Source: a virus. Taken from it: a stretch of DNA of 27,855 nucleotides. This document shows, in pieces, positions 1 through 27,855 of the stretch. The notes beneath the pieces are model-generated. The model ran no database searches, was not told the DNA's origin, and was given only the letters and a program-made list of their open reading frames with translations. The stretch covers positions 1 to 27,855 of IMG/VR virus record IMGVR_UViG_3300047276_000612. The stretch is one strand, 5' to 3'. Every line of letters begins with the position of its first letter. Positions within the stretch are counted from its first letter, which is position 1. The translations under genes were made by a program, and so were the position numbers.

Positions 1-1
1 G

Positions 2-640
2 GGTGGTGGGGGTGGGGGTGTGCCTGAAGCCCCAATTGATGGGGTTGAGTATGTCCGTAAGAATGGTGCTTGGTCTGCCAACTCTGGCATCCCTGAAGCC
101 CCGATTGATGGCACAAGCTATTCCCGCAACAATGGTGCGTGGACACCTTCGCCCACCTTCAATGGGGGCACAGTCTCTGCACCCATCAGCGTCACCGGGT
201 CTGGTGGCACAGCTACGCTTTCCGATACCGGTCTTGATTTGTCCGGCTCGACAGGTGGGGGTGGTGTGATTGTCGGAGCATCCGGCATCACTTTCCCTGA
301 TAGCACAAACCTGACCACAGCCCCTGCTTCTGGTCTGTCGTATAAGCAGACCATTGCTCAAACCTTTTCTGCCATCAGTGGTCAAGGCTATTGGACAGGC
401 AGCTATTACTACACAGGATTTAGTTTTGCTGGTGGGGTGTCCTACAATGATTGGGTAATTGCCAATAAGTTTAAGGTCAGCATCAATGGTTACCTGTTTA
501 GCTTTGGCTACACATCTTCTGGGGCACAGTATCTAAACCTTATGGATGACACCAGCACAGTCAGCTGTGTTGGAACAGGTGAAACACTTTATCTTCACTA
601 TGACGGAGAAACTGCACCCTATCCTTTCCTAATCACCTAA
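2..640 (+). CDS. Tail fibre-like protein, 5' end outside window
   Basis: Only the last 212 codons are visible; the frame is open from base 2, so the true start lies upstream. The visible part begins with a run of glycines (residues 1-6 of the fragment), then two tandem 23-residue repeats of the type PEAPIDGxxYxRxNGAW. Short repeats containing this PIDGxxYxRxNGxW pattern are common in phage tail-fibre and tail-collar proteins. A Ser/Thr/Gly-rich stretch follows and then a C-terminal region rich in Tyr, Gly and Ser with no cysteine pattern, which fits a beta-rich receptor-binding tip. It lies just before the lysis block, as tail-fibre genes often do. Seen: repeats and composition. Inferred: fibre role. 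The gene ends four bases before the next start. Confidence 0.7.
   Translation, partial: GGGGGGVPEAPIDGVEYVRKNGAWSANSGIPEAPIDGTSYSRNNGAWTPSPTFNGGTVSAPISVTGSGGTATLSDTGLDLSGSTGGGGVIVGASGITFPDSTNLTTAPASGLSYKQTIAQTFSAISGQGYWTGSYYYTGFSFAGGVSYNDWVIANKFKVSINGYLFSFGYTSSGAQYLNLMDDTSTVSCVGTGETLYLHYDGETAPYPFLIT
23..160 (+). repeat. Two tandem 69-bp coding repeats in the fibre gene
   Basis: Unit 1 (23-91) and unit 2 (92-160) each begin with CCTGAAGCCCC(A/G)ATTGATGG and encode a 23-residue PEAPIDG...NGAW unit. The first 20 bases differ at one position; the rest has diverged more. More units may lie upstream of the window. Confidence 0.75.
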
Positions 641-643
641 CCT

Positions 644-832
644 ATGGCCGTTAAATCCTATCCCGGCACAGGCTTTGCAGCCTATGTCTATAACAACAAG
701 GCTCACATCATCGGGGCTGTTAAGGCTGGCCAGACCTACCTTGTGCGTGACACAGCTAAGGTCATCTTCAACACTTCCTTGGAGGGTCTGCGTGCAGACC
801 TTATTGCCGAAGGCTATACCATCCTTAACTAA
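644..832 (+). CDS. Small hypothetical protein (62 aa)
   Basis: Not recognised. The ATG is preceded by CACCTAACCT, a start context shared by about ten other genes here, and begins 3 bases after the fibre stop. The product has no signal peptide or membrane segment. It has aromatic and glycine residues near the N-terminus (YPGTGFAAYVYNN) and a charged C-terminus. Sitting directly behind a fibre gene, it could be a fibre-assembly or attachment accessory, but nothing in the sequence shows this. Confidence 0.65.
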   Translation: MAVKSYPGTGFAAYVYNNKAHIIGAVKAGQTYLVRDTAKVIFNTSLEGLRADLIAEGYTILN

Positions 833-841
833 CCAACCATT

Positions 842-979
842 ATGCTCCTGATTATTTCCTCCGTTACCTGCTACCTGCTTGGTGCTGCCACAGGCATTGC
901 CATTTACCGCAACAATGTTGCCAAGCTTCAGGCCACTGAACAGAAGGCCAAGGCTGCACTTGATGCCCTGAAGAAGTAA
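842..979 (+). CDS. 45-aa single-span membrane protein, lysis-block candidate
   Basis: ATG at 842, TAA at 977-979. Residues 1-22 form a hydrophobic segment (MLLIISSVTCYLLGAATGIA), followed by a short basic turn (YRNN) and a Lys/Ala/Glu-rich helix (residues 27-45) likely to be a coiled coil. This is the layout of a small type II membrane protein, such as an inner-membrane spanin fragment or a holin accessory. It sits between the 62-aa gene (9-bp gap) and the lipobox protein (4-bp gap). Seen: composition and tight packing. Inferred: role in lysis. It is too short for any family assignment by eye. Confidence 0.6.
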   Translation: MLLIISSVTCYLLGAATGIAIYRNNVAKLQATEQKAKAALDALKK

Positions 980-983
980 GCCA

Positions 984-1757
984 ATGCGTGTGGCAATGGT
1001 GGCAGTGTTGGCCTTATTCCAAAGCTGCCAGCAGGAAGTTAAGCCTGACCCTCAGCCGGAAGCTAATCCCCAGACTACACAGGTGCTGGGTGAGAAGCTG
1101 GACAAAGCTGATAGCCGGGTTGCTTCTGCTGTGCAGGTAGCAAGGGAAGCCAACACTGCCGGCAAGCCTGACAAGGTAGAGGCAGAGCTTTCCGTTGCTG
1201 CGTCCTACCTGCCCAATCCCAAGCCCGGTGACTTAGCCTATGCCCGACAGCGTGCTGAGACTGCTGACCCTAAAGCCTACGCTGAGGCTGTTGCCTACGG
1301 CCAGAAGCTGAAGGCCGACAATGATGCCCTGTGGGGAAAGATGGAGGCACAGCAGAAGAAGGCACAGGCCGAGATTGCTGCCCTGAAGAAGCACTGTGAC
1401 GATAAGCAGCTTGAGCTTGAGGCTGGCCGGAAGGAAAAGGGTTTGCTTATCCTGACCTGCTTAGGTGCTGGGATGATTGCCCTAGGTGTCCTGCTTGTGG
1501 CTTTCGGCCATTGGGTAGGGGTCAACAAGCTGTCTGCCGGCTTGGTGGTCTTGGGTGGGGCTATGACTTCAGCCCTGCCTTGGGTCATTGAAAGCACTTA
1601 TTTCCCTTGGATTATTGGGGTGACCCTATCTGTTGCAGCCTTCCAAGCGTTGCTGGCTATGGGCATTAAGACCTATCGTTGGCTTAAGCCTGTGCCTGTG
1701 TTGACCGAAACTGCAAAGGTAACGGACACAGACAATGGCAGCAGCCCCAGCATTTGA
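984..1757 (+). CDS. Lipobox + coiled-coil + C-terminal membrane protein, candidate u-spanin
   Basis: 257 aa. Residues 1-15 (MRVAMVAVLALFQSC) look like a short lipoprotein signal ending in Cys15, although the lipobox (FQSC) is imperfect. Residues 16-80 are polar and Pro/Ala-rich. Residues 85-150 are a long charged helix rich in Lys, Glu, Gln and Ala, probably a coiled coil. Three hydrophobic segments follow at about 153-176, 183-201 and 207-230. A lipid-anchored N-terminus, periplasmic coiled coil and C-terminal membrane anchor is the architecture of unimolecular spanins such as T1 gp11, though those are shorter with one membrane span. The gene overlaps the holin start by 23 bp. Seen: segments and overlap. 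Inferred: outer-membrane disruption role. Confidence 0.6.
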   Translation: MRVAMVAVLALFQSCQQEVKPDPQPEANPQTTQVLGEKLDKADSRVASAVQVAREANTAGKPDKVEAELSVAASYLPNPKPGDLAYARQRAETADPKAYAEAVAYGQKLKADNDALWGKMEAQQKKAQAEIAALKKHCDDKQLELEAGRKEKGLLILTCLGAGMIALGVLLVAFGHWVGVNKLSAGLVVLGGAMTSALPWVIESTYFPWIIGVTLSVAAFQALLAMGIKTYRWLKPVPVLTETAKVTDTDNGSSPSI

Positions 1758-2112
1758 GTCAGTCACATCTGACGAAGCCCTGAAGCAAGGGGTTATCTCA
1801 GCTGCCCTTGGTGGGTCGGCAATGGTAGCCCGGCAGCTCCTGTCCACAGACCGGCCTACTTGGGGATACCTAGTCAGGTCTGGCATTGCTGCTATGGTGA
1901 CTGCCTATTTCGTTAACTTTGCGTGCAAGGATTATGTGCAGTCTGAAAACCTAAGGGTTTGCATCGTTGGCATTGCCGGTTTTGCCAGCCCGGAAATCCT
2001 TAACTACGGCCTAGCCTTCCTGAAGGCCAAGATGCAGGGTAAGGTTGAAGAAGCACAAAGGGGATTGAGCAAGGCCACCAAGCAACCTAAGAAAAAGAAG
2101 AAGGCCAAGTGA
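1735..2112 (+). CDS. Holin, LydA-like (phage holin superfamily III)
   Basis: 125 aa. Three hydrophobic segments at about residues 19-35, 47-64 and 73-97, separated by GGSAMVARQLL, a short TDRPTWGYLVRSG loop and an ENLRVCIVGIAGFASPEIL segment. The pattern of an ARxLL helix, R-x-W loop, then a GIAGFASPEIL-type third segment matches LydA-type holins, which form inner-membrane lesions that release or activate the endolysin. The C-terminus carries a strongly basic tail (KKKKKAK), typical of holins on the cytoplasmic side. It overlaps the candidate u-spanin upstream and the next membrane-protein gene downstream, so all are likely translated from one message. The endolysin is not adjacent but lies at 4817. 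Confidence 0.8.
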   Translation: MAAAPAFESVTSDEALKQGVISAALGGSAMVARQLLSTDRPTWGYLVRSGIAAMVTAYFVNFACKDYVQSENLRVCIVGIAGFASPEILNYGLAFLKAKMQGKVEEAQRGLSKATKQPKKKKKAK

Positions 2113-2453
2113 TGCCCGACACAGAAGCCAGACCTTATGGGATGCACCCGGCCAATCTGCTGATGGCTGTAATCGGATGCACAATCATTGCCGGCCTGTG
2201 TGCTTTGACTGTCTATCTCACAGCTGACTTCATCCTTACCAGCATCCGGTCAGCAAATGTGATGGCACTGTTGATAACCGATAACCCCGGCCAGACCTTT
2301 GTGGCTGATGATAAAAATCTTGAAAGGAATTTGAACAGTGCAACCCAAGCCCTGCTGACCTGCCGGGATGTGAGTCTGGCCTTGGGGGTGGGTTGCTGTA
2401 TGATTGCCGGGGCGTTGGGCTGGAAGCTGACTGTTGGTAAGCCGGCCAAGTAA
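2112..2453 (+). CDS. Two-span membrane protein next to holin
   Basis: 113 aa from ATG 2112, which overlaps the holin TGA by one base (TGATG); a GTG one codon earlier is a less likely start. Two hydrophobic segments at about residues 15-42 and 87-106 are separated by a polar loop of about 45 residues containing an Asp/Asn-rich stretch. No catalytic motif is visible. Placement directly after a holin suggests an antiholin or second holin. Family not recognised, so the lysis role is inference from context only. Confidence 0.65.
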   Translation: MPDTEARPYGMHPANLLMAVIGCTIIAGLCALTVYLTADFILTSIRSANVMALLITDNPGQTFVADDKNLERNLNSATQALLTCRDVSLALGVGCCMIAGALGWKLTVGKPAK

Positions 2454-2493
2454 GGCTTGCTTGCAGGGGTCTGGCTTGGCTTTCTAGGGGGGT

Positions 2494-5957: not shown

Positions 5958-6029
5958 GCTTCAGTAGCACAATGGCTGTGCAACTCTTTTGTAAAGAGAA
6001 GGCTGCCGGTTCAAGTCCGGCCTGAAGCT
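5958..6029 (+). tRNA. tRNA-Thr (anticodon UGU)
   Basis: 72 nt with a full cloverleaf. The acceptor stem GCTTCAG (5958-5964) pairs with CTGAAGC (6022-6028). The D-stem GCAC/GTGC encloses AATGGCT with GG. The anticodon stem encloses TTTGTAA with anticodon TGT at 5990-5992. The T-stem GCCGG/CCGGC encloses TTCAAGT. No CCA is encoded (TCCCC follows), so the host must add it. Two oddities: the first anticodon-stem pair (5983/5999) is A-A, and the discriminator base is T instead of the usual bacterial A for Thr. It reads threonine ACA codons. It sits between two genes in a 111-bp gap. Confidence 0.9.
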
Positions 6030-6060
6030 CCCCTTTGATAACCCTTTCCCACCAACACCA

Positions 6061-6507: not shown

Positions 6508-7281
6508 ATGCGAAAGCCCAAAGACAGCACGCAACCTGAACAGGTTGAACCCATCAACGAAACCAGCAAGCCTGTCGGCACTCTGCCGGTAATCAGCGAC
6601 TATGCCCGACAGCTCAGCCCCAATGAAGCGTTGGTGCTGGCAGTCGCTCAGTGCGAGAATGTCGCTGCCGACAAATTCAACCCTCACTTCAAGTCCAAGT
6701 ATTTCGGGCTTGGTGACCTGCTGGCCGAAGTTAAGCCCATCTTCCTGAAGTATGGCCTGACCATCCTCCAGACGGCCTACACGGAGGAAGGCAAGATTAG
6801 CGTGAAGACCGAAGTGCTGCACTTCTCCGGCCATCGGTTTGACTTCAAGGAAATGGGCATCAAGTCCGAAGGCCAAAACCTTCAGCAGCTTGGTAGCGTC
6901 ACGACCTATCTCCGCAGATATTCCATCAGCACTTTGGCCGGCATCAGTGCCGATACGGACAATACTGATGATGACGGCAACGCTGCCACCCATAAGCCTT
7001 ACCCTCAGCAAGCCTACGCCAAGCCTTCCCGCCCGGCAGTCAATGCCAGCATCAGCCCGGCTATGCCCACCAAGGCACAAGCCAAGGAAGAAGGCAAGTG
7101 GTGGGTAACCATCGGCCTTCTGAGCGTTGACCAAATCAAGGCTGCTGAAGCCATCCTGTGGAAGAAGGGCTGGCTGAAGGAAGGTGAGCTGCTGGAATTC
7201 CTGCCTGATGACAAGGTGGAGATGCTGACCGGCAATCCCAAGATGACCCAAGCCTTTATGGAGGCCGTCAACAATGCCTAA
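6508..7281 (+). CDS. ERF-family single-strand annealing protein
   Basis: 257 aa. ERF superfamily proteins form rings that anneal complementary single-stranded DNA for phage recombination. Signature blocks are FKSKYFGLGDLL (61-72), AEVKPIFLKYGLTILQ (73-88), then QQLGSVTTYLRRYSISTLAG (126-145) and the acidic DNTDDDG (151-157). The C-terminal 100 residues are less conserved and include a Trp-rich, Lys-rich region (GKWWVTI, WKKGWLKEG) that may bind partners. It overlaps the next gene by 8 bp. The exonuclease downstream at 9683 would supply its ssDNA substrate, as in Red/RecET-type pairs. Confidence 0.9.
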   Translation: MRKPKDSTQPEQVEPINETSKPVGTLPVISDYARQLSPNEALVLAVAQCENVAADKFNPHFKSKYFGLGDLLAEVKPIFLKYGLTILQTAYTEEGKISVKTEVLHFSGHRFDFKEMGIKSEGQNLQQLGSVTTYLRRYSISTLAGISADTDNTDDDGNAATHKPYPQQAYAKPSRPAVNASISPAMPTKAQAKEEGKWWVTIGLLSVDQIKAAEAILWKKGWLKEGELLEFLPDDKVEMLTGNPKMTQAFMEAVNNA

Positions 7282-7573: not shown

Positions 7574-7574
7574 T

Positions 7575-9458: not shown

Positions 9459-9693
9459 GCCAATCAGATACACTGTTGAAGAAGGCCGTGATAGCAACGG
9501 AAGCACCAAGCACTTCATCTTGGTCACCGGTGGCCACTTCAAGCATAGCCCCGGCTTCCTGTCTTGGGATGGCCTACTGCTCCGGTTCGACACCAAGACG
9601 GATGCTGCCCTTTTCTGCCAGCTGGCCAACACCGGCTTCATTGACTTTCCTTTCTGCAAACCAACCAACACACCCAAACACAATGATAACTAA
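9451..9693 (+). CDS. Hypothetical protein with TTG start (80 aa)
   Basis: Not recognised. No ATG is available near the N-terminus; TTG 9451 gives a start overlapping the upstream gene by 8 bp, the same overlap as at 7274 and 9174. The product is small and beta-prone (KHFILVTGGHFKHSPGFLSW) with aromatic residues. It overlaps the exonuclease start by 11 bp. Its length and placement suggest a real gene. Confidence 0.55.
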   Translation: MSKPIRYTVEEGRDSNGSTKHFILVTGGHFKHSPGFLSWDGLLLRFDTKTDAALFCQLANTGFIDFPFCKPTNTPKHNDN

Positions 9694-10561
9694 ACAAATG
9701 ATTGATGCTCTGCCCACTGCCAATTGGTCTAGGGCTGACTATGATGCTTGTCCTAACCTGAACCAATCCGCTGCCAAGCTTCTCTTGGTCAGCCCGGGGC
9801 ACTTCAAGGATTACCTGACCCAGCCCCGGAAGGAAACAGCAGCCCTGCGGATGGGGAAGCTGGTGCATATGGCTACCCTAGAGCCTGAGCGTTTCAGCAC
9901 AGAGCTTATCACCATCCCTGAGGATGCCCCTAAGAAGCCCACGGAGAAGCAGCTTAACGCTAAGAAGCCCAAGCTGGAACACCTTGAGGCCAATGCTTGG
10001 TGGGATAACTTCAATGAGCTGGCCAAGGGTAAGACCATCGTTGACCTTGATGAGCAGCAGGACGCTAAACATATGGGCGTTGCCCTGCTCAGCGAAATGG
10101 AATATTGGGGAGTTAACCCGATTGCCCGGGAGCTGTCCGTTGTCTGCAATTATAGCGACATAGACCTGAAGGGGCAGCTTGATATTGTCACTGCCGATGG
10201 TTGGATTTATGACTTGAAGACCTTTGAGAAGAAGCTGAGCAAATACACTGTGCGTAGCTCAGTCTATAAGTATGGGTATCAATTCCAAGCAGCCTATTAC
10301 TGTCTGCTGTTCAAGCAGGTGTTTGGCTTCCGGCCTCAGGGCTTCCGTATGGTCTGCGTGGAGAAGCACAGCCCAAACGCTACCGGCATCTATGAAATCA
10401 GCGGGAAACTGCTGGCCGAAGGTATGGCACAGGTCAATCAAGCCTTTGACAGCTACAAGGCGTGCAAGGCTTTCGACAGCTGGCCGTTGTATCCCAAGCA
10501 AATCAACATCCTTGAGCCTTATGAAGATAAGGATGAGGTTGAAGCCATCACCTTTGCCTGA
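9683..10561 (+). CDS. RecE/PDDEXK-type exonuclease
   Basis: 292 aa. The N-terminal block NLNQSAAKLLLVSPGHFKDY and RMGKLVHMATLEPERF (56-71) is typical of the phage PDDEXK exonuclease group related to RecE/exonuclease VIII. The catalytic core is KGQLDIVTADGWIYDLKT with Asp167 and Asp177-x-Lys179, followed by YQFQAAYYCLLF (199-210), the helix that closes the active site. These enzymes chew one strand of a duplex end, exposing ssDNA for the ERF annealing protein encoded at 6508. The ATG at 9683 (ACACAATG) is chosen because upstream sequence in the frame overlaps the 80-aa gene. The downstream gene starts 3 bp after the stop. Confidence 0.85.
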   Translation: MITKQMIDALPTANWSRADYDACPNLNQSAAKLLLVSPGHFKDYLTQPRKETAALRMGKLVHMATLEPERFSTELITIPEDAPKKPTEKQLNAKKPKLEHLEANAWWDNFNELAKGKTIVDLDEQQDAKHMGVALLSEMEYWGVNPIARELSVVCNYSDIDLKGQLDIVTADGWIYDLKTFEKKLSKYTVRSSVYKYGYQFQAAYYCLLFKQVFGFRPQGFRMVCVEKHSPNATGIYEISGKLLAEGMAQVNQAFDSYKACKAFDSWPLYPKQINILEPYEDKDEVEAITFA

Positions 10562-10564: not shown

Positions 10565-11104
10565 ATGGACGCTGTAACTACAAGCTGGCTGAAGATTGCC
10601 GGGCTGCTGACTGTGGCTGCTATTCAGGTTGGCCTTCTTATCTTTGCCTTCAAAGGTCTGAAGCAGTGCAAGGTATTGGTCAAAGACCTGCTTGCAGAGC
10701 AGGAAGAAGCCAAGGCCAACGATAAGCCCAAGGCTGATAGCTATTCTTACAAGGAATATAACCCAAAGGATAAGGCAACAGCCAACAAGGATTATAAGCC
10801 CGGTGCTTACTTTGACTGTGATGCCAACACCTTTAAGCCATTGCTCAAGCCGGTCTGGGTTGCTGAAGCCCGGAAGCCCAAGGAAGGTGACGGAACATCC
10901 ATCTACTTCTTCCATCTGAAAGGCCGGCAGTTTACTCCCAACGGCCTCATCCTAGGTGAGTGCTACCTTTACAGTGGAACAGGCAAATGCTTTGTGACCA
11001 CCACAGACCCCAAGACGGCACTGCTTATCCAGCAGCTGCTGAATGACGGCAACCTTACCACCAACGATATCAACAACAAATCCACTACCAATGACCTACA
11101 ATAA
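10565..11104 (+). CDS. Membrane-anchored hypothetical protein (179 aa)
   Basis: Not recognised. ATG 10565 (GACCTATG). Residues 8-30 are hydrophobic (WLKIAGLLTVAAIQVGLLIF), so the protein is probably anchored by its N-terminus. A Lys/Asp-rich linker (50-80) leads into a beta-prone domain with aromatic residues (SIYFFHLKGRQF, CYLYSGTGKCF). It overlaps the next gene by 14 bp. It is odd to find a membrane protein between exonuclease and ssDNA-binding candidates; function not inferred. Confidence 0.65.
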   Translation: MDAVTTSWLKIAGLLTVAAIQVGLLIFAFKGLKQCKVLVKDLLAEQEEAKANDKPKADSYSYKEYNPKDKATANKDYKPGAYFDCDANTFKPLLKPVWVAEARKPKEGDGTSIYFFHLKGRQFTPNGLILGECYLYSGTGKCFVTTTDPKTALLIQQLLNDGNLTTNDINNKSTTNDLQ

Positions 11105-11522
11105 CACCAACCGGCCTAAGCTCACAGCCATCACCAATCCCGGTGACTATGTGGTTAAGGTCTGCCGTATCCGTGACGAAGACATTTCCCAGACCCAGAA
11201 GGGTGATGCCAAAATCAAGGTGCTGATGACCACCAAGGATAGCCAGAAAATCAATGATGTATTCTTTGCCAGCACTGATGGTGCTTTGAAGCGTGCAGCT
11301 GCCTTTGTCAGCACAGCCACAGGCCAGAAGGTCGGTCTGCCTGTCCGGTCTGCCGATGGCCTGAAGTCCTTTCTGGCCAAGGCTGAAGGCAGCTGGCTTA
11401 AGGTAACTGTCGTAAAGGAAAGCGTCACCTTCTCTGACGGCACTACCAAGGATATCTGCAAGGTGACCAAGTTTCACAGCTTCACCCAACAGGTTGACAC
11501 CACGGAAGCCCCAGAATTCTAA
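11091..11522 (+). CDS. Possible ssDNA-binding protein (143 aa)
   Basis: ATG 11091 (ACCAATG). The body is beta-prone with alternating hydrophobic and basic residues (GDYVVKVCRIRDED, KIKVLMTTKD, SWLKVTVVKESVTF), as expected for an OB-like fold, and it ends in an acidic tail closing with Phe (TTEAPEF). SSB proteins use a similar acidic, Phe-ended tip to bind partner proteins. Position between exonuclease and helicase supports a replication or recombination role. No family signature is certain; alternative: an unrelated replication accessory protein. Confidence 0.55.
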   Translation: MTYNNTNRPKLTAITNPGDYVVKVCRIRDEDISQTQKGDAKIKVLMTTKDSQKINDVFFASTDGALKRAAAFVSTATGQKVGLPVRSADGLKSFLAKAEGSWLKVTVVKESVTFSDGTTKDICKVTKFHSFTQQVDTTEAPEF

Positions 11523-11577: not shown

Positions 11578-12201
11578 ATGACAACCCACAAAGCAAGGGT
11601 GCTGGTAGCCTGTGAGCTATCAGGCACTGTGCGTGACGCTTTCACAGCAAAAGGCTTCTATGCTATGAGTTGTGACCTGATGCCAAGCGACCAACCCGGG
11701 GCACACTATCAAGGTGACGCTCTCGACATTATCAATGAAGGCTGGGACTTGATTATTGCCCACCCTCCTTGCACCTATCTTTCCAAGGCCGGTGCTAGGT
11801 GGCTTTATCGTGCAGGTGAAATCAACCAAGACAGGTTGCAGCAGGGCTATGAAGGTAAGGCTTTCTTTGAGGCTATGCTTAACGCTGACTGCCCTAGGAT
11901 TTGCGTTGAAAATCCTACGCCACTTAAGGTGTTCAATCTACCCCCCCCCCAACAAATTATTCAACCATATGAGTATGGTCATCCGTATTCTAAACGGACT
12001 TTGCTTTGGCTTAAAAACCTTCCGCAACTCATCCCAACCAATGTGCTTGCTGAATTCAGGCCATACCTGCCGTCAAACACAGGCGGGAAGAAAAGAGGAC
12101 AAAGCTACTCAATCGGCATCAGCAAAAACGCAAAGCAAAGCAGCAAGACCTTTGAAGGCGTTGCTGAAGCTATGGCCGACCAATGGGGCAAACTGCTATG
12201 A
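11578..12201 (+). CDS. C5-cytosine DNA methyltransferase-like protein
   Basis: 207 aa. Motif I-like ACELSGTVRDAF (11-22) and CDL (32-34) would bind S-adenosylmethionine. The catalytic motif IV is HPPCTYLS with Cys65, and motif VI is ENP (111-113). The segment QPYEYGHPYSKRTLLWLKN (129-147) is typical of the compact phage cytosine-methyltransferase group. It is shorter than full C5 enzymes and lacks an obvious large target-recognition domain, so specificity cannot be read. A C10 tract lies at codons 122-125. The role is probably protection of phage DNA from host restriction. It overlaps the helicase by 4 bp (ATGA). Confidence 0.78.
   Translation: MTTHKARVLVACELSGTVRDAFTAKGFYAMSCDLMPSDQPGAHYQGDALDIINEGWDLIIAHPPCTYLSKAGARWLYRAGEINQDRLQQGYEGKAFFEAMLNADCPRICVENPTPLKVFNLPPPQQIIQPYEYGHPYSKRTLLWLKNLPQLIPTNVLAEFRPYLPSNTGGKKRGQSYSIGISKNAKQSSKTFEGVAEAMADQWGKLL
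11941..11950 (+). repeat. C10 homopolymer inside methyltransferase gene
   Basis: Ten consecutive C, read as Pro-Pro-Pro then the first base of Gln. Loss or gain of one C would shift the frame and remove the last 80 or so residues. Such tracts in methyltransferase genes are known slipped-strand phase-variation sites in bacteria; whether this one varies is inference. Confidence 0.75.
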
Positions 12202-13517
12202 CAACACATAAAGCCCCAAGCCAGCTGCCCCCATCTGACTTGGATGCCGAAAGGACTGTGCTTGCATCTATCCTAGTGGATGCAGGACAGGCCAACGGCA
12301 TACTTAAGATTTGTGCCGAGCTAAACCTTCAGCCGGCCACATTCTTTGAACCCAAGCACCAGACCATCTACCAAGCCTGTCAGCAGATGCTGGCCGAAGG
12401 CATCAACCCGGATGAGCTGACCCTTGGCAACCACCTACGCAGCACCCTAGCCCTAGAGCAAGCCGGAGGTGTGGCCTACATCAATGAGCTGACGGCAACC
12501 CTGTTCAGCCCATCCCCTAACATCAGGCCGGCTATCGGCATCCTGTCAGAGAAGCACCAAGCCCGGCAGCTCATCTACATTGCCCGGGACATTACAGCCA
12601 AGGCTCTCTCTGGGGCGTTTAAACCCTCAGAGCTAGCCACATCCTTCCAAGCCCAAGCCAAGGCTCTCCTAGAGGCAAGCACAGGCCAAAGCACCACACA
12701 GCGGATGGCCTTGGAAGACCTGATGGCCTTTGACCGGCACAATGACCCTAACAACCTGATTGGCAACCGGTGGCTATGCAAGGGTGGCAGTCTGCTCTTC
12801 TCTGCCCAAGCCGGCTGCGGGAAGTCCACCCTAGTTACATCTATGCTGGTCAATTGGTCGCTAGGCAAAGCCCTCTGGGGCATCAAGCCGGTCAAGCCCC
12901 TGCGGATAGTCCTGCTGCAATCGGAAAATGACGGAGGGGATTTAGGGGAGCAGTGGCAGGATATCCTAAAAGACCTTTACCTGACCCAAGCTGAACGGCA
13001 GATGCTGTTTGAAAATGTCTTCATCTACCGGGAGGCCGTGAAGACAGGTGACGCTTTCGGCCAGCTGATTGAAGACCTAGTTAAGACCCATAGTGCAGAC
13101 CTATTGGTTTGCGACCCCCTGCTGGGGTTCGCCGGTGGGGATGTATCCAAGCAGGAGTTTTGCAGCCACTTCCTGCGTCACATCCTTCAGCCCTGCCTGA
13201 TGCGGACAGGCTGTGCCCTGATTGCCGTCCACCACCAAAACAAACCCCCTAAGAAGGGTGATGGCAATGTGCAGTCCACCTATGATTTTACAGGAAGCAG
13301 TGAGCTGGCAAATTGGTTCAGAGCTACGGCCATCCTTAGGCGTGAAGACCAAGAGCAGCCCCACTTCATCTTCAAGCTTGGCAAGCGTGGAGGCCGGGCA
13401 GGGATGCGGGATGGCCAAGGTATGTTCACTGAGTCACTACGTATCCGGCACAGCAAGGTCAGAGGGGAAATTAAGTGGGAGATTAACAACGCCCCACCCC
13501 CCACTGAAGATGTGTGA
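12198..13517 (+). CDS. Replicative helicase: DnaB-N domain + RepA-like RecA-fold ATPase
   Basis: 439 aa. Residues 10-110 (PPSDLDAERTVLASILVDA onward) resemble the DnaB N-terminal domain. The C-terminal half is a RecA-fold ATPase: Walker A AQAGCGKST (203-211), Walker B LLVCDP (302-307) and VHHQNK (344-349). The form is closer to the RepA/AAA_25 hexameric helicase type than to full DnaB. It would unwind DNA at the phage origin. ATG 12198 overlaps the methyltransferase stop as ATGA; an in-frame ATG at 12183 lies deeper in that gene and is less likely. A repeat- and palindrome-rich non-coding region follows directly, a plausible origin for this helicase. Confidence 0.88.
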   Translation: MTTHKAPSQLPPSDLDAERTVLASILVDAGQANGILKICAELNLQPATFFEPKHQTIYQACQQMLAEGINPDELTLGNHLRSTLALEQAGGVAYINELTATLFSPSPNIRPAIGILSEKHQARQLIYIARDITAKALSGAFKPSELATSFQAQAKALLEASTGQSTTQRMALEDLMAFDRHNDPNNLIGNRWLCKGGSLLFSAQAGCGKSTLVTSMLVNWSLGKALWGIKPVKPLRIVLLQSENDGGDLGEQWQDILKDLYLTQAERQMLFENVFIYREAVKTGDAFGQLIEDLVKTHSADLLVCDPLLGFAGGDVSKQEFCSHFLRHILQPCLMRTGCALIAVHHQNKPPKKGDGNVQSTYDFTGSSELANWFRATAILRREDQEQPHFIFKLGKRGGRAGMRDGQGMFTESLRIRHSKVRGEIKWEINNAPPPTEDV

Positions 13518-14897: not shown

Positions 14898-14935
14898 GGT
14901 TTGTCCGGGCACGCTGAAACAATCATTTGCAATCA

Positions 14936-15511
14936 ATGACACAAAAGGAATTAGCTAAGCTGCTTGGTCTATCCATCGGCACAGTCAGCAAGAAATGCCA
15001 AGAGGGTATGCCAAAGGATTTGGAAGGGGCTAAGGCGTGGATAGAGCTACGCAAGGCCAACCGGCACAGGAAGCTTCCGCAGCCCAAGGCACAGGCCAAG
15101 GTTGCCGAAGTGCCACCGGCCTTGAAAGGGCTGACAGCCGGCACGCTGAGCTACGCCTTGGCACAGCACCGGATGCTGGTTGACCGGGCTAGAGAGACTT
15201 ACCTTGCAGCCATTGAAGGGAATGACCCTGCCCAAAACAAACTTCAGTCAGCCTACAACAGCAGCCTGAAGACCTTGATTGACCTAGAGGATGAAGAGAA
15301 GAAGAGAGCCATTGACGCTAGGGAATACATCAAGCTAACGGAGGCACAGGAAGTGATTGAGAAGTGGACTGCCCGGGTAGGCCAGAAGTGGGATAAGTTA
15401 GAGCTTGAGGCAGCTGAGCAGTGCAATCCTGACCGGCCTGAAGTGGCACAGAAGGCGTTGCAGAAGTGGACGCTGGAAGCCCGCAAATCCCTTTCTACTC
15501 CCCAGCTATGA
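14936..15511 (+). CDS. terS: Terminase small subunit candidate (191 aa)
   Basis: ATG 14936 (ATCAATG). An N-terminal helix-turn-helix (TQKELAKLLGLSIGTVSKKCQEGMP, residues 2-26) is followed by a basic linker and a long helical region. This matches Nu1-type small terminase subunits, which recognise the packaging site and hand DNA to the large subunit. The last 4 bases overlap the large-terminase start (ATGA), as expected for a stoichiometric pair. The family call is based on the HTH plus position. Confidence 0.78.
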   Translation: MTQKELAKLLGLSIGTVSKKCQEGMPKDLEGAKAWIELRKANRHRKLPQPKAQAKVAEVPPALKGLTAGTLSYALAQHRMLVDRARETYLAAIEGNDPAQNKLQSAYNSSLKTLIDLEDEEKKRAIDAREYIKLTEAQEVIEKWTARVGQKWDKLELEAAEQCNPDRPEVAQKALQKWTLEARKSLSTPQL

Positions 15512-17352
15512 CCGAACAGGAAGCCCGGCTGATTAAGGCAGCACAGGCCATCATCAAACCTAGTTACTCTGGGGATGTGGTGCAGTGGCTTGAAGACAAT
15601 GTGAATGATGTTCCTGATAGCCCTATCCGTGGGAAGCTTAACCTAAGCCGGACACCTTGGATAGCTGAGGCTTTGCGTATTGGGACAGACCCTGAAACCA
15701 AGCTGCTGACCATCCTTGCCAGCACGCAGTCCGGCAAATCCCTGTTTGCCCGGCTCTATTCCATCTGGCAAATCATCAACGCCCCTGCCCCATTTATGAT
15801 GCTTCAGGCCAATGACCCTGAGGCTAAGGACTTCTTCCTGCGTTATGTCCGGCCACTGTGGAAGCAGACCCCGATTGTTCAGGCTATGCTGTCTGAAGGG
15901 GATAACGACAAAAGCACAGTGGCTGACTTCAGCAATGGGGTGACAGTCTATTGCCGTGGGGCTTGGAATGAAAACAACCTGCAACGCCTGAGCTTGCGGA
16001 CAGTCATCATTGACGAAGCTTGGCTAGTCCCAAGGGGTCACATTGCTGAGGCTATGGCACGCACACAAAGCTTCAGCTTTATGGGGCGTGTGATTGTGAT
16101 GAGTCAGGGGGGCAATGATGGGGATGAATTCCACACCCTGCACAACGGCACAGACCAGCGTAAGTGGTGCTTCAGCTGCCCGGCCTGTTCCTATGTCCAG
16201 CCTTGGGATTGGGCTATGGTCAGATTTCCAGAAGATGCCAAGGTTGGCGGGATGTGGGACTTCCAGAAGGTGGAAGCCGGCACAACCTATGAGTGCTGCA
16301 ATTGCAATGTCCGTCTGAAGGATACACCCGGTGTCCGGGCTGAGGCTAACCGGATTGACCGGGGTGCAAAGTTTGTGGCAAGCACTCAAGCCAGCAGCTG
16401 GGGTAGCGTTGGCCTTCATTGGAATTGTTTGTGCAACAGCAGCTGGGGCAAGGAAAGCGTCAAGCTCCTTAAGGCTAAGGAAAGTGCTGACCTTTATGGG
16501 GATGATGCCCCACGCAGGGTGTGGAAGCAGAAGCGTTTGGCTCAGGCTTGGTCAGAGGATGGTGGGGAAATGGTAGCCCAAGCACAGGCTGGGGATTACT
16601 CCCTTGGGGATGCTTGGGACTTGGAAGCCAAGATTACACCTGAGGCCGGCATTGTGGACATTCACAGTGCAAACATCCCTGAAGGCTCAGTGCCGTTCAG
16701 GACGCTGGCCGTAGATGTGCAGCGTGGACACCTATGGGCAGAAGTAAGAAGTTGGGCTAAGACCGGTCACAGCCGGTTAAGGTGGTATGGCAAGCTTGAG
16801 ACTTGGCAGCAGGTTGATGACTTGGCCAAGACACACCAAGTGCATAAAGCCCTTGTGGGGGTTGACTGTGGTGACCAGACCCAAGAGGTCTATGCACAGT
16901 GTGCAGCTAAAGGATGGAAAGCCCTTAGGGGTAGTGGTCAGGCTGACTTCACTGTGCAGGACTTTGGAGGCAAGACCACCAAACGATTTTACTCTGACAA
17001 GCAGCTTATCTTTGTCCCCGGCCAGCAACGCAGGTGTGAAATGATTGTGCATAGCAACCTTAGCACCAAGGATTTTCTGGCAGGATTGCAGAAACGCCGG
17101 CTGCATACATACCCCCGGAATGTCCCTGAAGACTATGTGCAGCAGCTGACTGCCGAAGTCCGGGTGAAGGATAGCCGGACAGGGAAGCCCCATTGGATTA
17201 TGCCGGCTGGCAAGACCCACGGAAACCACGCTTGGGATTGTGCCCTGATGGGTCTTATCCTTGCAGTCCGTTGGGGTATCATTGGCCGTGAGGCTACTGA
17301 GGCAATGACGGCAGATGCCAAACAGGAAGACGCTAAACCAGAAGCAGGTTGA
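15508..17352 (+). CDS. terL: Terminase large subunit, GpA family
   Basis: 614 aa. It drives DNA into the head and cuts the packaged ends. The ATPase has a Walker A-like STQSGKS (72-78) and Walker B TVIIDEAW (165-172). A zinc-binding insertion has Cys221, Cys224, Cys227 and Cys263, Cys264, Cys266. The nuclease domain carries Asp403 (AVDVQRG), Asp453 (GVDCGDQ) and Asp577 (HAWDCALMG). Domain order and length match lambda gpA-type terminases, which use cos ends. ATG 15508 is chosen over an in-frame upstream ATG at 15466 because it gives the ATGA overlap with the small subunit. Confidence 0.94.
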   Translation: MTEQEARLIKAAQAIIKPSYSGDVVQWLEDNVNDVPDSPIRGKLNLSRTPWIAEALRIGTDPETKLLTILASTQSGKSLFARLYSIWQIINAPAPFMMLQANDPEAKDFFLRYVRPLWKQTPIVQAMLSEGDNDKSTVADFSNGVTVYCRGAWNENNLQRLSLRTVIIDEAWLVPRGHIAEAMARTQSFSFMGRVIVMSQGGNDGDEFHTLHNGTDQRKWCFSCPACSYVQPWDWAMVRFPEDAKVGGMWDFQKVEAGTTYECCNCNVRLKDTPGVRAEANRIDRGAKFVASTQASSWGSVGLHWNCLCNSSWGKESVKLLKAKESADLYGDDAPRRVWKQKRLAQAWSEDGGEMVAQAQAGDYSLGDAWDLEAKITPEAGIVDIHSANIPEGSVPFRTLAVDVQRGHLWAEVRSWAKTGHSRLRWYGKLETWQQVDDLAKTHQVHKALVGVDCGDQTQEVYAQCAAKGWKALRGSGQADFTVQDFGGKTTKRFYSDKQLIFVPGQQRRCEMIVHSNLSTKDFLAGLQKRRLHTYPRNVPEDYVQQLTAEVRVKDSRTGKPHWIMPAGKTHGNHAWDCALMGLILAVRWGIIGREATEAMTADAKQEDAKPEAG

Positions 17353-17739: not shown

Positions 17740-19233
17740 ATGGCTAAGAAAGCAGAGCGTATCATCAAGACAACGGCAGAGGCTACCCAGACTAAGAAGC
17801 TGGCTGGCTCTCAGCAGTTTACCAGCATCCAGAATAACGGCAACCGGGCTGCCATCTACGGCACTGCCGTTGATTTCAGCGTGGACTATACGCCCACAGA
17901 CCGGCTGGAAATGATTAAGCGTCTGCGTTATGGTGAAAGAAACTGTGGCCTAGTCCGTCAAATCTTCAGTGACTTTGTTACCTATGTTGTAGGTGACGGC
18001 CTTACCCATCAGTCACATTGCTCTGATGCTGTGAAGGCTGCGAAGTATGAAGAAGCCTTTACCATTGCTGCAAAGAATTTGGACATTTCTGGACGCTTCA
18101 GCTGGGTGGAGATTATGCGTATCCTGCTTAGGGGTGCTATCCGGGATGGGGACAGCTTTGGCCTTTTCGTAAAGGATGAGGAAGATGCCCCTAAAATCCA
18201 GATGCTGGAAGGTCACCGGGTTGGAAATCCCACTGACCGACCTGTGCCTGATGGGATGATTGATGGTGTGCAGTTTGACAGCATTGGACGCATCAGGGCT
18301 TATAACATCCTTGAGGCCAATGGTAAGAGCAAGCTGCGTGAGGCTTCTTCTGTCCGTCAGATTTGTGAACAGGACTATTCTTCTGGTAGCCGGGGACTTC
18401 CCCTGCTTCAGCATAGCTGGTCTGATATTCAATCAGAGGATGAGCTGCTGAAGCTTGAGATGCTGGCTGTCCGCAATGATGCGGACTTTACCCGGGTGCT
18501 GAATAAGCAGGGTGGCTTTGTGGCCGGCCAGCTGAAGGAAGAAATGGGTGGTGGTGGCAGCGGGAACAGCGAAGGACTAGCCCGAAAACTTGGTGGCAAG
18601 CTTGCTGTGCTTGAACCCGGTGAAAGCCTTTCCAGCCTAGAGAGCAAGCGACCCAGCAATAACTTTGTGGCTTTCCTTGAGGCCGTCCAAAAGGACATTG
18701 CCCGGGGAACAATCCCCTATGAATTCACCAGCAATCCGGGTCAGGCCGGTGGTGCTGCCCTGCGTTTGATTGCAGCCAAGGCTGACCGAATTTTCTCCCG
18801 CTGGCAGACCATCCTGATTGAGAAGCTTTGCACGCCTGTCTATCTGTATGTTATCGGCACAATGATTGATAAGGGTGAGCTTCCGGACAGCCCCGATTGG
18901 TGGAAGGTCAGCTGGACTACCCCCAAGCGTCTGACCATTGACGCTGGCCGGGATGCTGCTTCTGACCGGGCTGATGTGGAGCTTGGCCTTCTGTCTATGT
19001 CTGAAATCTATGCACAGCGTGGCCTAGACCTGCGGACTGAAATGACCAAGCGTGCTGCTGACTTTAAGTTTATTATGCAGCTGGCAGAGCAGGAAGGCAT
19101 CCCGCTTTGGACGCTTTACAAGCCCGGCTTCAATTGGTTGCAGACAGGTCAAGGCAAGCCCACAGCTGCCGAAGTGCAGATGGGCGGGATGACTCCAAAC
19201 CCTGATAACCCTCCCACTGACCCCAACGCCTGA
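17740..19233 (+). CDS. Portal protein, lambda family
   Basis: 497 aa. It forms the ring at one head vertex through which DNA passes. Marks of the lambda portal family: an N-terminal helical region with YTPTDRLEMIKRLRYGERN, the wing segment VEIMRILLRGAIRDGDSFGL, and the conserved block KRPSNNFVAFLEAVQKDIAR then GTIPYEFTSNP (about 305-335), followed by a long helical stem. Length is near the family size. It lies 6 bp after the gpW-like gene; start ATG (CCTTTTATG). A Gly/Ser stretch (MGGGGSGNSEG) sits in a likely loop. Confidence 0.92.
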   Translation: MAKKAERIIKTTAEATQTKKLAGSQQFTSIQNNGNRAAIYGTAVDFSVDYTPTDRLEMIKRLRYGERNCGLVRQIFSDFVTYVVGDGLTHQSHCSDAVKAAKYEEAFTIAAKNLDISGRFSWVEIMRILLRGAIRDGDSFGLFVKDEEDAPKIQMLEGHRVGNPTDRPVPDGMIDGVQFDSIGRIRAYNILEANGKSKLREASSVRQICEQDYSSGSRGLPLLQHSWSDIQSEDELLKLEMLAVRNDADFTRVLNKQGGFVAGQLKEEMGGGGSGNSEGLARKLGGKLAVLEPGESLSSLESKRPSNNFVAFLEAVQKDIARGTIPYEFTSNPGQAGGAALRLIAAKADRIFSRWQTILIEKLCTPVYLYVIGTMIDKGELPDSPDWWKVSWTTPKRLTIDAGRDAASDRADVELGLLSMSEIYAQRGLDLRTEMTKRAADFKFIMQLAEQEGIPLWTLYKPGFNWLQTGQGKPTAAEVQMGGMTPNPDNPPTDPNA

Positions 19234-23238: not shown

Positions 23239-23673
23239 ATGCCGTCCAAATCTCCCCTAAATATCGTTGAAGAAGCAGTGTCCGCAGCCCTGAAAGCTGA
23301 GGCTACGCTTGCCGGCCTGACCATCTATCGTGGTGAGGAAACCAGCGAGCTTACTCTGCCGGCCATTATCGTCAGCTGTGAGACTGCCCAACCTGCCCCT
23401 GACATTGCACAGGGTCTAGGAAACTATTTGTGCAAGGTATCCGTTGGGGTGGTTCACAACATTGATGATAATACGGAGACAGACCACCGGAACATTACAC
23501 AGGAAGTGATGGGCATTGTAGATAATGTGACCAAGATTAAGGCTGCTTTCACGGCCATTGGGGATGCCACCTGCTATGACACCACCCTGCAAAACCTTAA
23601 CTACAAGCCGGGTGATAGGGCTTTTACATCAAACCTTGATTATGAAATCCTAATGGTGCTAGCCCCTGCATGA
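23239..23673 (+). CDS. Tail terminator candidate, gpU-like (144 aa)
   Basis: ATG 23239 (GACCTATG). N-terminal helix (NIVEEAVSAALKAEATLAG), then beta strands (TIYRGEETSELTLPAIIVSC, CKVSVGVVHNIDDN) and a helix (HRNITQEVMGIVDNV), the general alpha/beta order of tail terminator proteins that end tube growth. It lies immediately before the tail-tube candidate. Call rests on position and secondary-structure pattern only. Confidence 0.6.
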   Translation: MPSKSPLNIVEEAVSAALKAEATLAGLTIYRGEETSELTLPAIIVSCETAQPAPDIAQGLGNYLCKVSVGVVHNIDDNTETDHRNITQEVMGIVDNVTKIKAAFTAIGDATCYDTTLQNLNYKPGDRAFTSNLDYEILMVLAPA

Positions 23674-24707: not shown

Positions 24708-26129
24708 ATGGCAGACGGACTAGAATTCACGATTTCGGCCAAAGACCAAGCATCCAAGGCCGTCAGCACTGTTCAGAAGAAAATCAATGACCTTGGGAAA
24801 GACTTGGCCAAAGGCTTCCTTTCCTTTGCCGGCCCTATGGCAATTGTTCAATCGGCCATTGGCTATGTGACCGATGCCATTGAAGAGCATAAAAAGAAAA
24901 TGGCTGAAGCTTTTGAAGCCTATTCAACCATTGGTGACAAGGCTGCTGATATTGGCGTTGCAGCTGATGAATTCATTAGGCTTCAAAACGCAGCTGATGC
25001 TTCCGGGTCTTCCGTGGATAAGGTGGGCAAACTGTTCAAGGAAGTCACGGCCATCATCCAACAGGCCACAGTCTCAGGCAGCGACCAAGAGCGTATGCTT
25101 AAGGCTTTGGGCTTCTCCGCTGAAGAGATTGCATCAGGTCTTCTTAAGCCAACGGAAGTCATCAAGACGATGGCCGACACCCTGAACAGTGCCACAGGAA
25201 ATACGGAGAAATTTAGCGTAGCGACAGCTATGCTTGGTGATAAGGCTGCCGAACTTATCCCTTTGCTTACCAAGGCTGACAATATCCTAAAGGGATATGG
25301 TGAAGACCCGGGCATTTCCAAGGAAGAGATTGCACTGCTTGAGCAGCAGAAGCTGGCCGACAAGCAAAAGGAAAACCAAGAGAAAGCTGCGATGGCCAGA
25401 AAGCGTGCCTTAGAGGAAGCCCGGAAAAACCCGGAAGTTATCGCTGAATACAACAAGCTTTTCCCTAGGGTGCTGACTGAAGAGCAGATGAAGCAACGAT
25501 ATGGAACAGAAGAAGAGGCTAACAAGGCTGGTTACTCTAGGGCTACAAGCTTCAAGGAGGGATATCGTCAGGCTGATGTTTTTACGAAAACAAATCTTTC
25601 ACAAGATGCTGAGATTTTACAGGCTTTGCAGAATGTAGAGGAAAGAAAGCGTCAGGCCAGAAAGGACACTGTTGATGCAGCCAACAGCGAAAAGGCTGCT
25701 GAGCTTCACAACCTTGAAATGAAGAAGCTTAATGATGAGGCTATGCGTATCCTTGAGGCTGAATGGGCTGACCAAGCCAAGACTACGGAGAAAGAAGATG
25801 AAGACGCTTTGAAGAAGCGTAGAAAAGACCTTGGTGAATTGCTGGACGCTGAGCAGAAGGCCAAGGATGAAACAGCCAAGGATGCTGCTAAGAAGGCTGA
25901 GAAGGCCAACAGGCTGACAGTCTCTAGCCTCCGTGAGATTGGTGGTGCTGTCGCTGGTGAATTCCAGCCCGGCACAGCAGCCCCTGTTGTTGACTACCAG
26001 AAGGAAAGCCTGAATGTTGAACAGCGTATTTTGCTAGAGCTTGAGAAGCTAAATAACATCTTCAATGAAAACAAGCGTCCCGGTGTGGACTTCACCAAGG
26101 ATACGACTTCTACCACCTTCATTTCCTAA
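24708..26129 (+). CDS. Tail tape measure protein (short)
   Basis: 473 aa, by far the longest protein after the terminase and portal, with features of a tape measure: Ala/Lys/Glu-rich helices throughout, a hydrophobic segment near residues 37-55 (FLSFAGPMAIVQSAIGYV) and long coiled-coil regions (about 205-245 and 320-400). Tape length sets tail length; at about 0.15 nm per residue (a general rule), the tail would be near 70 nm. It lies between the chaperone and tail-tip genes. Its start has the AACTATG context. Confidence 0.75.
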   Translation: MADGLEFTISAKDQASKAVSTVQKKINDLGKDLAKGFLSFAGPMAIVQSAIGYVTDAIEEHKKKMAEAFEAYSTIGDKAADIGVAADEFIRLQNAADASGSSVDKVGKLFKEVTAIIQQATVSGSDQERMLKALGFSAEEIASGLLKPTEVIKTMADTLNSATGNTEKFSVATAMLGDKAAELIPLLTKADNILKGYGEDPGISKEEIALLEQQKLADKQKENQEKAAMARKRALEEARKNPEVIAEYNKLFPRVLTEEQMKQRYGTEEEANKAGYSRATSFKEGYRQADVFTKTNLSQDAEILQALQNVEERKRQARKDTVDAANSEKAAELHNLEMKKLNDEAMRILEAEWADQAKTTEKEDEDALKKRRKDLGELLDAEQKAKDETAKDAAKKAEKANRLTVSSLREIGGAVAGEFQPGTAAPVVDYQKESLNVEQRILLELEKLNNIFNENKRPGVDFTKDTTSTTFIS

Positions 26130-26132
26130 CCT

Positions 26133-26870
26133 ATGCCAATTGACTCTAAAGGTAACAAACTTACCACCCTTCAGCTTCAGCCCGGCTGGGTCATTGAAAA
26201 TGATGGCTCAGGTCTGCTGACTTCCCGGCTGACCTTCCGTTGTGATGCCTCCGTTGTGGAGGCTAAGAAGCCTAAGGATAATGAAGCCCACCCAAAGGAT
26301 GGCCGGCTGCTCTGCCACAGAGCTTCCTATGTCATCAATGAAAATGACATTGCCACCATTACTGCTGAGTATGTCGGCCTTGCTTCCGGCAACATCACAA
26401 AGGTAGTTATCACAGGTGACAATGCCTTGAGCAGTCAGCCTATCCAGACCCATCCTAAGTTTTACAAGGGGACTGTGGGACAGACCGGGAAACCCCTTAA
26501 AGACCTTGGTTGGGATGAGGCTACGCAGTCTTTCCCTGAGTCTAATTCTGATGCCATTTCCTATTCATTGGTTGGCATTAAATCCTACCAAGCACCTGAC
26601 CTGCAATATACCGGGACTTACTACACAAACAGTAAGGCATTGCTCTTGGATAATCAGAAGATGGTTGGTAAGACATTCCAGACCATTGCCGGCTCAAATG
26701 ATACAATCGTTGTGCCTCCAATCCTTGCACCAATCAGCCAATACCATCTGCGTTATGGTTTTGTTACTGCCGTCAACTATGAGCAGTATGCCAATGTTTT
26801 CAAAGTCCGTTACACCTTCCGTGTGGCCACAGGTGGCTGGCATAGCTTCATCTACGAAACACACAATTGA
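26133..26870 (+). CDS. Tail-tip / distal tail protein candidate (245 aa)
   Basis: Not recognised. ATG 26133 (AACCTATG), 3 bp after the tape measure stop. The product is beta-rich, with several aromatic residues, and no transmembrane part. The gene following the tape measure is often the distal tail protein, so this is the best guess. It overlaps the next gene by one base (TGATG). Confidence 0.6.
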   Translation: MPIDSKGNKLTTLQLQPGWVIENDGSGLLTSRLTFRCDASVVEAKKPKDNEAHPKDGRLLCHRASYVINENDIATITAEYVGLASGNITKVVITGDNALSSQPIQTHPKFYKGTVGQTGKPLKDLGWDEATQSFPESNSDAISYSLVGIKSYQAPDLQYTGTYYTNSKALLLDNQKMVGKTFQTIAGSNDTIVVPPILAPISQYHLRYGFVTAVNYEQYANVFKVRYTFRVATGGWHSFIYETHN

Positions 26871-27343
26871 TGAGTAATAAAATCCAGCAAGGCGTTGGAT
26901 ACACCTATCAATCTGATAGCCGGGGCTTTTCGTTGCAGATTGAGCAGCAGGGACGCAGACGGCATCCCTTGCAGGTGTTCAGCAATCCTGACAACGGAAG
27001 CCCTGCCATCAGCGTCTGGCCGGGGACAGTCAATGGGGCTATGCCTAAGATTGGTGGGGCTTACCTTGATGCCACTACAAGGCCGAAGCTGTCCATTGGC
27101 AGCAGTGGCTATGTCTATGTTAAGGTTACTAGGGCAACAGGGCAGGTATTCCCTAGCACCATTGATATTGAGTTTGCCAGCACTGTGCCGGCAGACACCA
27201 GCACCATTGGTTACTTTTCCATTGCCAGCATTACCAAGACAGGAAACAGCCTGACCATCAACCAGCTTGTCAGCCAGAGCCTCATTGTTGGCCGTCAGGC
27301 TTATAGCTCTAGTGGGGCAATCTTCTATTGGTTCAATGTCTGA
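26870..27343 (+). CDS. Tail-associated protein (157 aa)
   Basis: ATG 26870 (TTG one codon upstream is unlikely). The product is soluble and beta-rich (RGFSLQIEQQGRRRHPLQVF, GYVYVKVTRATGQVF, YFSIASITKTGNSLTIN), with a Gly/Ser-rich C-terminus. Composition is like short tail-fibre or baseplate-hub proteins. Function inferred only from position. It overlaps the next gene by 8 bp. Confidence 0.6.
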   Translation: MSNKIQQGVGYTYQSDSRGFSLQIEQQGRRRHPLQVFSNPDNGSPAISVWPGTVNGAMPKIGGAYLDATTRPKLSIGSSGYVYVKVTRATGQVFPSTIDIEFASTVPADTSTIGYFSIASITKTGNSLTINQLVSQSLIVGRQAYSSSGAIFYWFNV

Positions 27344-27855
27344 CCGATACCCAGCCGGCTTCTACCCAATCAATAGCACCACCCCTGCCAAGTGGACTGA
27401 TGCACCGGGTCAGCCTAATGTGGTTCAATTCAATGGCTTAGTTTATTTAAAGACTAGCCGGCACACAGGGGGCACAGGTAAGCCGAATGAAGAGGAAGTG
27501 GGAGGCATCAGGACTTGGCAGCTCTACACCCCTGCAAAGAATTGGAGCAAGGGCTTTAGGTATTATTGGCAGCATCTACATAGCTGCATCCCTGAAACCG
27601 GTAGCCCAATCGTCTATGATGAAGATATCTATTCAGGCACTTCAAATTACTTTCAAGAAGTCAGCTTTATTGGGTCTGCCTCACAAAACAAGTGGCCTGT
27701 AAGCACAGCTGCTACATCCCTGCGTATCCCTGTCCCCATTCCAGCCGGCGAGATTTTGCAGGGGACTTCTGGCATCTTTACAAGGTGGCATCTTAACTAT
27801 ATCCCGCCACCTTACATCACATTTATTGATGGCTTTAATGGGTATGCTTCAGCCC
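27336..27855 (+). CDS. Tail protein, 3' end outside window
   Basis: ATG 27336 starts a frame that stays open to the right edge (173 codons). It begins MSDRYPAGFYPINSTTPAKW and contains tryptophans and tyrosines with a GGTGKPNEEE loop and IPVPIPAGEILQGTSG, giving the look of a beta-rich tail-tip or fibre protein. It overlaps the preceding gene by 8 bp, as other genes here do. If the window end is joined to the window start, this frame does not match that of the left-edge fibre gene, so more sequence lies between them. Confidence 0.6.
   Translation, partial: MSDRYPAGFYPINSTTPAKWTDAPGQPNVVQFNGLVYLKTSRHTGGTGKPNEEEVGGIRTWQLYTPAKNWSKGFRYYWQHLHSCIPETGSPIVYDEDIYSGTSNYFQEVSFIGSASQNKWPVSTAATSLRIPVPIPAGEILQGTSGIFTRWHLNYIPPPYITFIDGFNGYASA

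Follow-up and report, generated by a model that had tools for sequence, protein, structure and literature searches.

Avoidance of restriction sites by phages has long been recognised, in most demonstrations for only one or a few words at a time; a near-total loss of GATC is known from Staphylococcus phage K and E. coli phage T7. Avoidance is expected to be stronger in non-temperate phages. A survey of viral genomes reported complete or near-complete site elimination in about a tenth of them, mostly concerning orthodox Type II sites, with a trend for asymmetric sites not to be avoided (PMC6286503, Rusinov et al. 2018). Here we describe the IMG/VR virus record IMGVR_UViG_3300047276_000612, an entire contig of 27,855 bp (the window; W in comparisons), and the set of short words that its DNA lacks. 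As in the surveyed viruses, short and mostly palindromic Type II sites are nearly eliminated from a double-stranded DNA phage, in the manner of passive anti-restriction. Unlike in those cases, 28 kb of DNA have here lost at least 14 palindromic motifs together, asymmetric words are among the losses and the window's relatives swap their missing words wholesale. The absence is genome-wide, specific for palindromes and independent of codon usage, and the missing sets switch between relatives, most site differences at conserved amino acids being of a single base. We consider it very probable that this reflects extreme restriction-site avoidance against many Type II systems, probably those of Verrucomicrobiota hosts, in a lineage of tailed phages of about 28 kb.

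The words of the window were counted against two null models, an order-1 Markov expectation for each word and 200 permutations of synonymous codons in 45 open reading frames (ORFs) that cover 94% of the window, which leave each protein and the codon usage unchanged. GATC, GTAC, GCGC and CGCG have no copies, against Markov expectations of 72, 45, 86 and 32, and CATG and ACGT have one copy each against 174 and 30, the expectations for the six emptied words thus spanning 30 to 174. A preliminary description made by eye had reported these absences and had placed both single copies exactly; its figure of fewer than about ten TCGA was a small miss, as there are 11 (35 expected). Codon permutation gave means of 111 for GATC, 50 for GTAC, 59 for GCGC, 23 for CGCG, 63 for CATG and 52 for ACGT (z from -5 to -15), and none of the 200 permutations approached the observed counts. 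Because the permuted genes would still hold 23 to 111 copies, codon usage does not explain the six emptied words; no emptied word lies near its Markov expectation either, and the composition in bases, dinucleotides and codons leaves the depletion unaccounted for. The loss is selective for palindromes, as had been suspected: 6 of the 16 palindromic tetranucleotides fall to 5% of expectation or less, versus 0 of 120 non-palindromic pairs (p = 1e-6), and 6 of 31 split-palindrome pentamers are emptied versus 7 of 457 other pentamers (p = 5e-5). The palindromes that the preliminary description called common are indeed plentiful (CCGG 223, GGCC 200, AGCT 211, TGCA 135, CTAG 86).

That description understated the pattern, since longer and degenerate words are equally empty. 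GGNCC occurs once, and GGNNCC, CCWGG, GAWTC, GCSGC, ACSGT, CTRYAG and GRGCYC do not occur at all, the codon-shuffle means for these eight lying between 13.5 and 97 each. Together with the six tetranucleotides they make up the conservative tally of 14 palindromic motifs; the boundaries of motifs, which come from a greedy search, are approximate. Words that differ from some of these only at the centre base are plentiful, with 115 CCSGG against 51 expected from the codon shuffle, 159 GCWGC against 97 and 53 ACWGT against 34. Discrimination by centre base is typical of Type II enzymes, and the emptied words correspond to Type II recognition sequences. Five asymmetric words are also nearly empty (observed/expected: ACTGG 0/49, ACGAG 0/25, AGAAC 1/41, AGTTC 2/43, ACGGG 1/33). 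ACGAG has been reported as the methylated motif of a lake Verrucomicrobia bin (PMC6329791), a coincidence worth checking.

To place these numbers, the scan used for the clade was applied to known phages, with lambda, T7 and K covered over their first 28 kb only. It returned 22 avoided motifs in the window, 14 to 30 in members of its clade and 0 to 1 in unpurged relatives. Lambda avoids 1 motif and T7 avoids 4, and Staphylococcus phage K and KHP30 avoid 4 and 3, both being AT-rich genomes in which the scan has lower power for GC-rich words. K and T7 share the loss of GATC with the window at 4 motifs each versus 22. Two distant portal relatives of the window (23-25% identity), Verrucomicrobia phage P8625 and Akkermansia phage Moulinsart, each carry an annotated DNA methyltransferase and avoid only 2 and 4 motifs, respectively; P8625 lacks GTAC and has nearly lost GGNCC. 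A literature search of incomplete coverage found only general surveys for comparable multi-motif purges. Within that literature, the mechanism is known, and the novelty lies in how many words are purged at once and in how completely close relatives exchange them.

The relatives show that the list of missing words is not fixed. The contigs are here labelled A (3300020042_010673), B (3300020044_008861), C (3300037189_019805), D (3300020042_010636), E (3300032234_000798, also L004), F (3300020044_011290), G (3300046820_001346), H (3300032050_001132) and I (3300004240_001258); all are metagenomic and many are fragments, so that a gene missing from a fragment is not evidence of its absence. In the terminase alignment, B is 95% identical to W, E 89%, D 88%, L007 85% and L009 75%. 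A, B and C lack nearly the same words as W. GGCC is nearly gone from D (2/198), E (0/143) and F (0/157), all of which retain GCGC and CCWGG. GATC and CCWGG are retained in L032 and L033, GATC and GCGC in L007. In G and H, CTAG has all but vanished (1/38 in G) and GATC and CCWGG are retained; I and its kin are without CCGG and AGCT, I having 327 GCGC. L009 and L044 lack CCGG, GGCC and GCGC and retain CATG, GATC and GTAC. In these two (L009:1-6957, L044:1-5460), which have 42% GC and are also without CCWGG, AGCT is very dense, at 206 copies in 7.0 kb or about 1 per 34 bp, twice the dinucleotide expectation.

The alignment of W with D is the most direct comparison. Over 20.5 kb aligned at 75.4% DNA identity, W has 151 GGCC versus 0 in D, 0 GCGC versus 67 and 0 CCWGG versus 157, and not one GGCC, GCGC or CCWGG site is common to both. 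Among the site differences at unchanged amino acids, single-base changes account for 70 of 89 at GGCC, 35 of 47 at GCGC and 79 of 84 at CCWGG. A quick helicase tree of 33 rows with 11 open forks, read for the number of changes and not for their direction, requires at least 5 changes of state each for CATG, GGCC and CCWGG, 4 each for GCGC and ATAT, and 3 each for GATC, GTAC, ACGT, CTAG, GGNCC and GAWTC; across the purged clade, all 29 rows lack GGNNCC. These repeated changes, with reciprocal absence in close relatives, show that the depletion follows lineage-specific pressure and not ancestry.

All sampled members at about 63% helicase identity or more are purged, and most relatives outside the clade, at 34-43%, are unpurged. 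At 41-43%, partial purges were seen in L118, L122, L123, L126, L128 and L129, in sets such as ACGT with GCGC, CGCG with CATG, and GTAC and CATG with GGCC. These independent partial purges suggest that the pressure recurs outside the main clade. A distant relative of 31 kb, L082/L083 (contig 3300032234_000470; terminase 46-47%), is purged of yet another set, with counts of 1/171 for GATC, 0/72 for CCWGG, 0/80 for GCAGC and 0/49 for CACTG.

A purely compositional origin of the rare words, from dinucleotide, CpG or codon usage, draws on the fact that words containing CpG start low: the window has a CpG observed/expected ratio of 0.46, and D-H have 0.2 to 0.3 (CpG and composition figures cover 23 of 39 rows). 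Both nulls nevertheless expect 23 to 174 copies per word, GATC, GTAC, CATG, GGNNCC and CCWGG contain no obligatory CpG, and CCGG is 1.9 to 3 times over-represented in the window. Relatives of similar GC content carry the opposite words, down to 151 versus 0 GGCC in homologous genes, and the nulls together with the W/D alignment rule composition and codon usage out, leaving them practically no chance. The CCGG excess (223 versus 71 by Markov, 218 versus 117 by codon shuffle; CCSGG behaves likewise) is larger still in relatives A-F, at about 4.5 to 5 times, and CCGG and CCSGG are perhaps a destination of displaced CpG and CC/GG content. Base composition and ancestry both fail to account for the pattern; a changing, word-specific pressure from outside does account for it.

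Such words could also be worn away without restriction, by deamination of 5-methylcytosine to thymine at methylated sites. Several emptied words hold potential targets of this kind and CpG is low, but GATC, GTAC, GAWTC and CATG, which are usually methylated on adenine, have been lost too, and the loss is total rather than partial, so that deamination would have to be switched off and the sites refilled completely between relatives; we find this hardly credible. Chlorella viruses encode restriction-like enzymes along with methyltransferases, and CATG and GTAC are sites of such enzymes. By analogy the phage, or a co-resident virus, might encode restriction-like nucleases against host or rival DNA and so purge the phage's own genome, and the window does carry a PD-(D/E)XK nuclease. 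This nuclease is RecE/exonuclease VIII-like, however, no sequence-specific endonuclease was found among the window proteins scanned (10 with Pfam, 10 with PHROGs, 6 with PADLOC), and more than 10 specificities would have to fit into a 28 kb genome, which makes a self-encoded source very unlikely. Restriction by hosts, in contrast, agrees with the preference for palindromes and the switching of sets between relatives; the preliminary description had proposed several host restriction enzymes, which stands, and modification-dependent enzymes, to which nothing points. Its suggestion that the pattern might serve as a fingerprint of the host is a reasonable one.

Who the hosts may be was approached through the terminase. 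An alignment search of 84,980 species genomes matched only metagenome-assembled genomes of Opitutales/Verrucomicrobiota. Among 223 genomes of the order Opitutales, 23 have a match. Because of these matches, and of the portal kinship with P8625 and the Akkermansia phage, the host phylum is probably Verrucomicrobiota. The matching genomes themselves were not taken as those of the host, their terminases being 49-58% identical and their phage regions unpurged. Indirect support for restriction by such hosts comes from their gene content. Methyltransferase matches per Verrucomicrobiota genome reach 8 for C5, 12 for N6/N4 and 6 for D12 types, in different genomes and with fragments included. An endonuclease of the NgoBV family, named after a GGNNCC enzyme, is encoded in 3 of 388 Verrucomicrobiota genomes, in each case with a C5 methyltransferase gene 33 to 256 bp away, an arrangement that looks like a complete restriction-modification pair. 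In the sampled DNA of these three genomes GGNNCC, GGNCC and GRGCYC are partly avoided, and CTAG is near-absent from two. Genomes G321 and G338 (loci L254-L266 and L287-L306), in each of which the NgoBV-family gene adjoins the C5 methyltransferase gene, have CTAG at 0/122 and 1/64 (first sample) and low GGNCC and GRGCYC. G321, G338 and G398, which are rich in restriction-modification systems, were considered as hosts for their partial avoidance of GGNCC and GRGCYC, and of CTAG in two; no match is claimed because the window keeps CTAG.

Several observations weigh against host-driven site avoidance as proposed here. The sampled verrucomicrobial genomes rich in restriction-modification systems share the avoidance of some words in part, but the window's list is that of none of them; with the host placed only as probably Verrucomicrobiota, none of the missing words was paired with a cognate enzyme. 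L010 and L017 (terminase 68-72%; known by terminase and portal only) are unpurged, and for this reason the pressure is not common to all relatives. As CpG is generally low in the window, codon shuffling could set the expectation too high for some words that contain it. The emptying of ACTGG, ACGAG, AGAAC, AGTTC and ACGGG breaks the trend that asymmetric sites are spared, published avoidance being almost only of orthodox Type II sites (PMC6286503). These asymmetric losses do not exclude the window from Type II avoidance because its depleted palindromic words fit the definition.

A locus beside the helicase gene may modulate the pattern. In W, C, L029 and L033 the slot between the gene at 11091-11522 and the helicase, immediately upstream of the latter, is occupied by M3, a small gene of phrog_757. 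In D, E, L037 and L041 it is occupied by M1, a full C5 methyltransferase gene (L004:3995-5098; PF00145, E 1e-52) whose product is, among solved enzymes, nearest to M.HaeIII and M.HhaI. A different small methyltransferase gene, M2 (L038:3440-4075), occurs in G, L032, L033, L041 and L114, upstream of the RecE gene where seen. M3 is homologous to annotated phage DNA methyltransferases through its PHROGs match, and no Pfam family, the PF00145 catalytic domain included, matched it at E up to 1; its methyltransferase activity is for this reason put forward as a suggestion. CCWGG is retained in all 8 contigs with M1 or M2 and missing from 9 of 18 covered contigs without them (Fisher p = 0.016, ignoring kinship). 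The closest group agrees, D, E, L032 and L033, which have M1 or M2, retaining CCWGG, and W, A, B, C, L029 and L030 lacking it. Nine contigs, however, retain CCWGG without M1 or M2, the p value takes no account of relatedness, and a CCWGG specificity of M1 and M2 is presumed. Protection of GCGC by M1 was rejected: GCGC is present in D and E and absent from L037 and L041, all of which have M1. That a swappable methyltransferase beside the helicase spares some sites is therefore a weak lead, and protection of CCWGG by M1 and M2, with sites returning where the gene is present, would be a possible but doubtful component of host-driven avoidance.

The genes of the window are, by their predicted products, those of a tailed phage: besides the genes listed in the table, they include genes for a tape measure protein, an ATP-dependent ligase and a Holliday-junction resolvase homologue. 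Several related contigs are near-equal in length (27.7 and 28.1 kb) with differing cut points, from which the genome is probably about 28 kb long and circularly permuted. Megablast matched the window to no cultured phage, and none is close to it. A tRNA-Thr gene with anticodon TGT lies at 5958-6031, and the ORF at the left end contains an imperfect repeat, at 19-53 and 88-122, encoding PEAPIDG followed by a YxRxNGAW-like stretch. A PADLOC scan of six unassigned window proteins gave only a weak match, of a 60-residue mad1 model to the N-terminus of the ORF at 14927-15511, which was taken as chance or a shared DNA-binding fold.

Table. Coordinates in the window of the purged contig, its two residual single-copy words and the genes considered here.
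Feature	Position	Strand	Basis or use
Whole phage contig, purged of the listed words	1..27855		Word counts and null models
Erf-like single-strand annealing protein	6508..7281	+	Pfam/PHROGs profile matches
RecE/exonuclease VIII-like PD-(D/E)XK nuclease	9677..10561	+	Pfam/PHROGs profile matches
DNA-methyltransferase-like gene M3, motif HPPCT	11578..12201	+	phrog_757, E 2.3e-51
DnaB-like helicase	12183..13517	+	Pfam DnaB and AAA_25; clade collection and tree
Only ACGT of the window	13439..13442		Inside the DnaB-like helicase gene
Terminase large subunit, GpA-like	15508..17352	+	Relatives and likely host phylum
Portal protein	17740..19233	+	Search for further relatives
Only CATG of the window	23669..23672		Last codons of ORF 23239-23673

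We infer host restriction enzymes as the cause of the purge, a verrucomicrobial host, and an order in which words were lost and regained. The hosts, collectively or singly, would carry many Type II restriction-modification systems, and active enzymes would destroy incoming genomes with unmodified sites. Site-removing mutations, mostly single synonymous changes, would then build up until no sites remain. When the host repertoire shifts, a word no longer under pressure would regain its sites by drift as a different word is lost, and we propose that such changes of repertoire are why close relatives have different, near-complete lists of forbidden words. Phage methyltransferases encoded near the helicase might, as a weak possibility, protect some words such as CCWGG.

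The clade is a ready-made series of versions of the same genes, each spelled under a different list of forbidden words, and from it the rate, the order and the cost of site loss and regain become measurable. It would also allow a direct test of the idea that avoidance is relaxed by methyltransferases of the phage, and it would make the restriction repertoire of uncultured hosts inferable from phage sequence alone. A bolder version, which we regard as speculative and rather unlikely, is that single verrucomicrobial hosts run more than 10 Type II systems simultaneously and swap them fast, and that the phage lineage keeps up by rewriting hundreds of sites across the genome, between relatives that are about 75% identical in DNA, and by trading a methyltransferase cassette at one locus to regain particular words. 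If this is true, the restriction repertoire of each host could be read from the words that its phage lacks.

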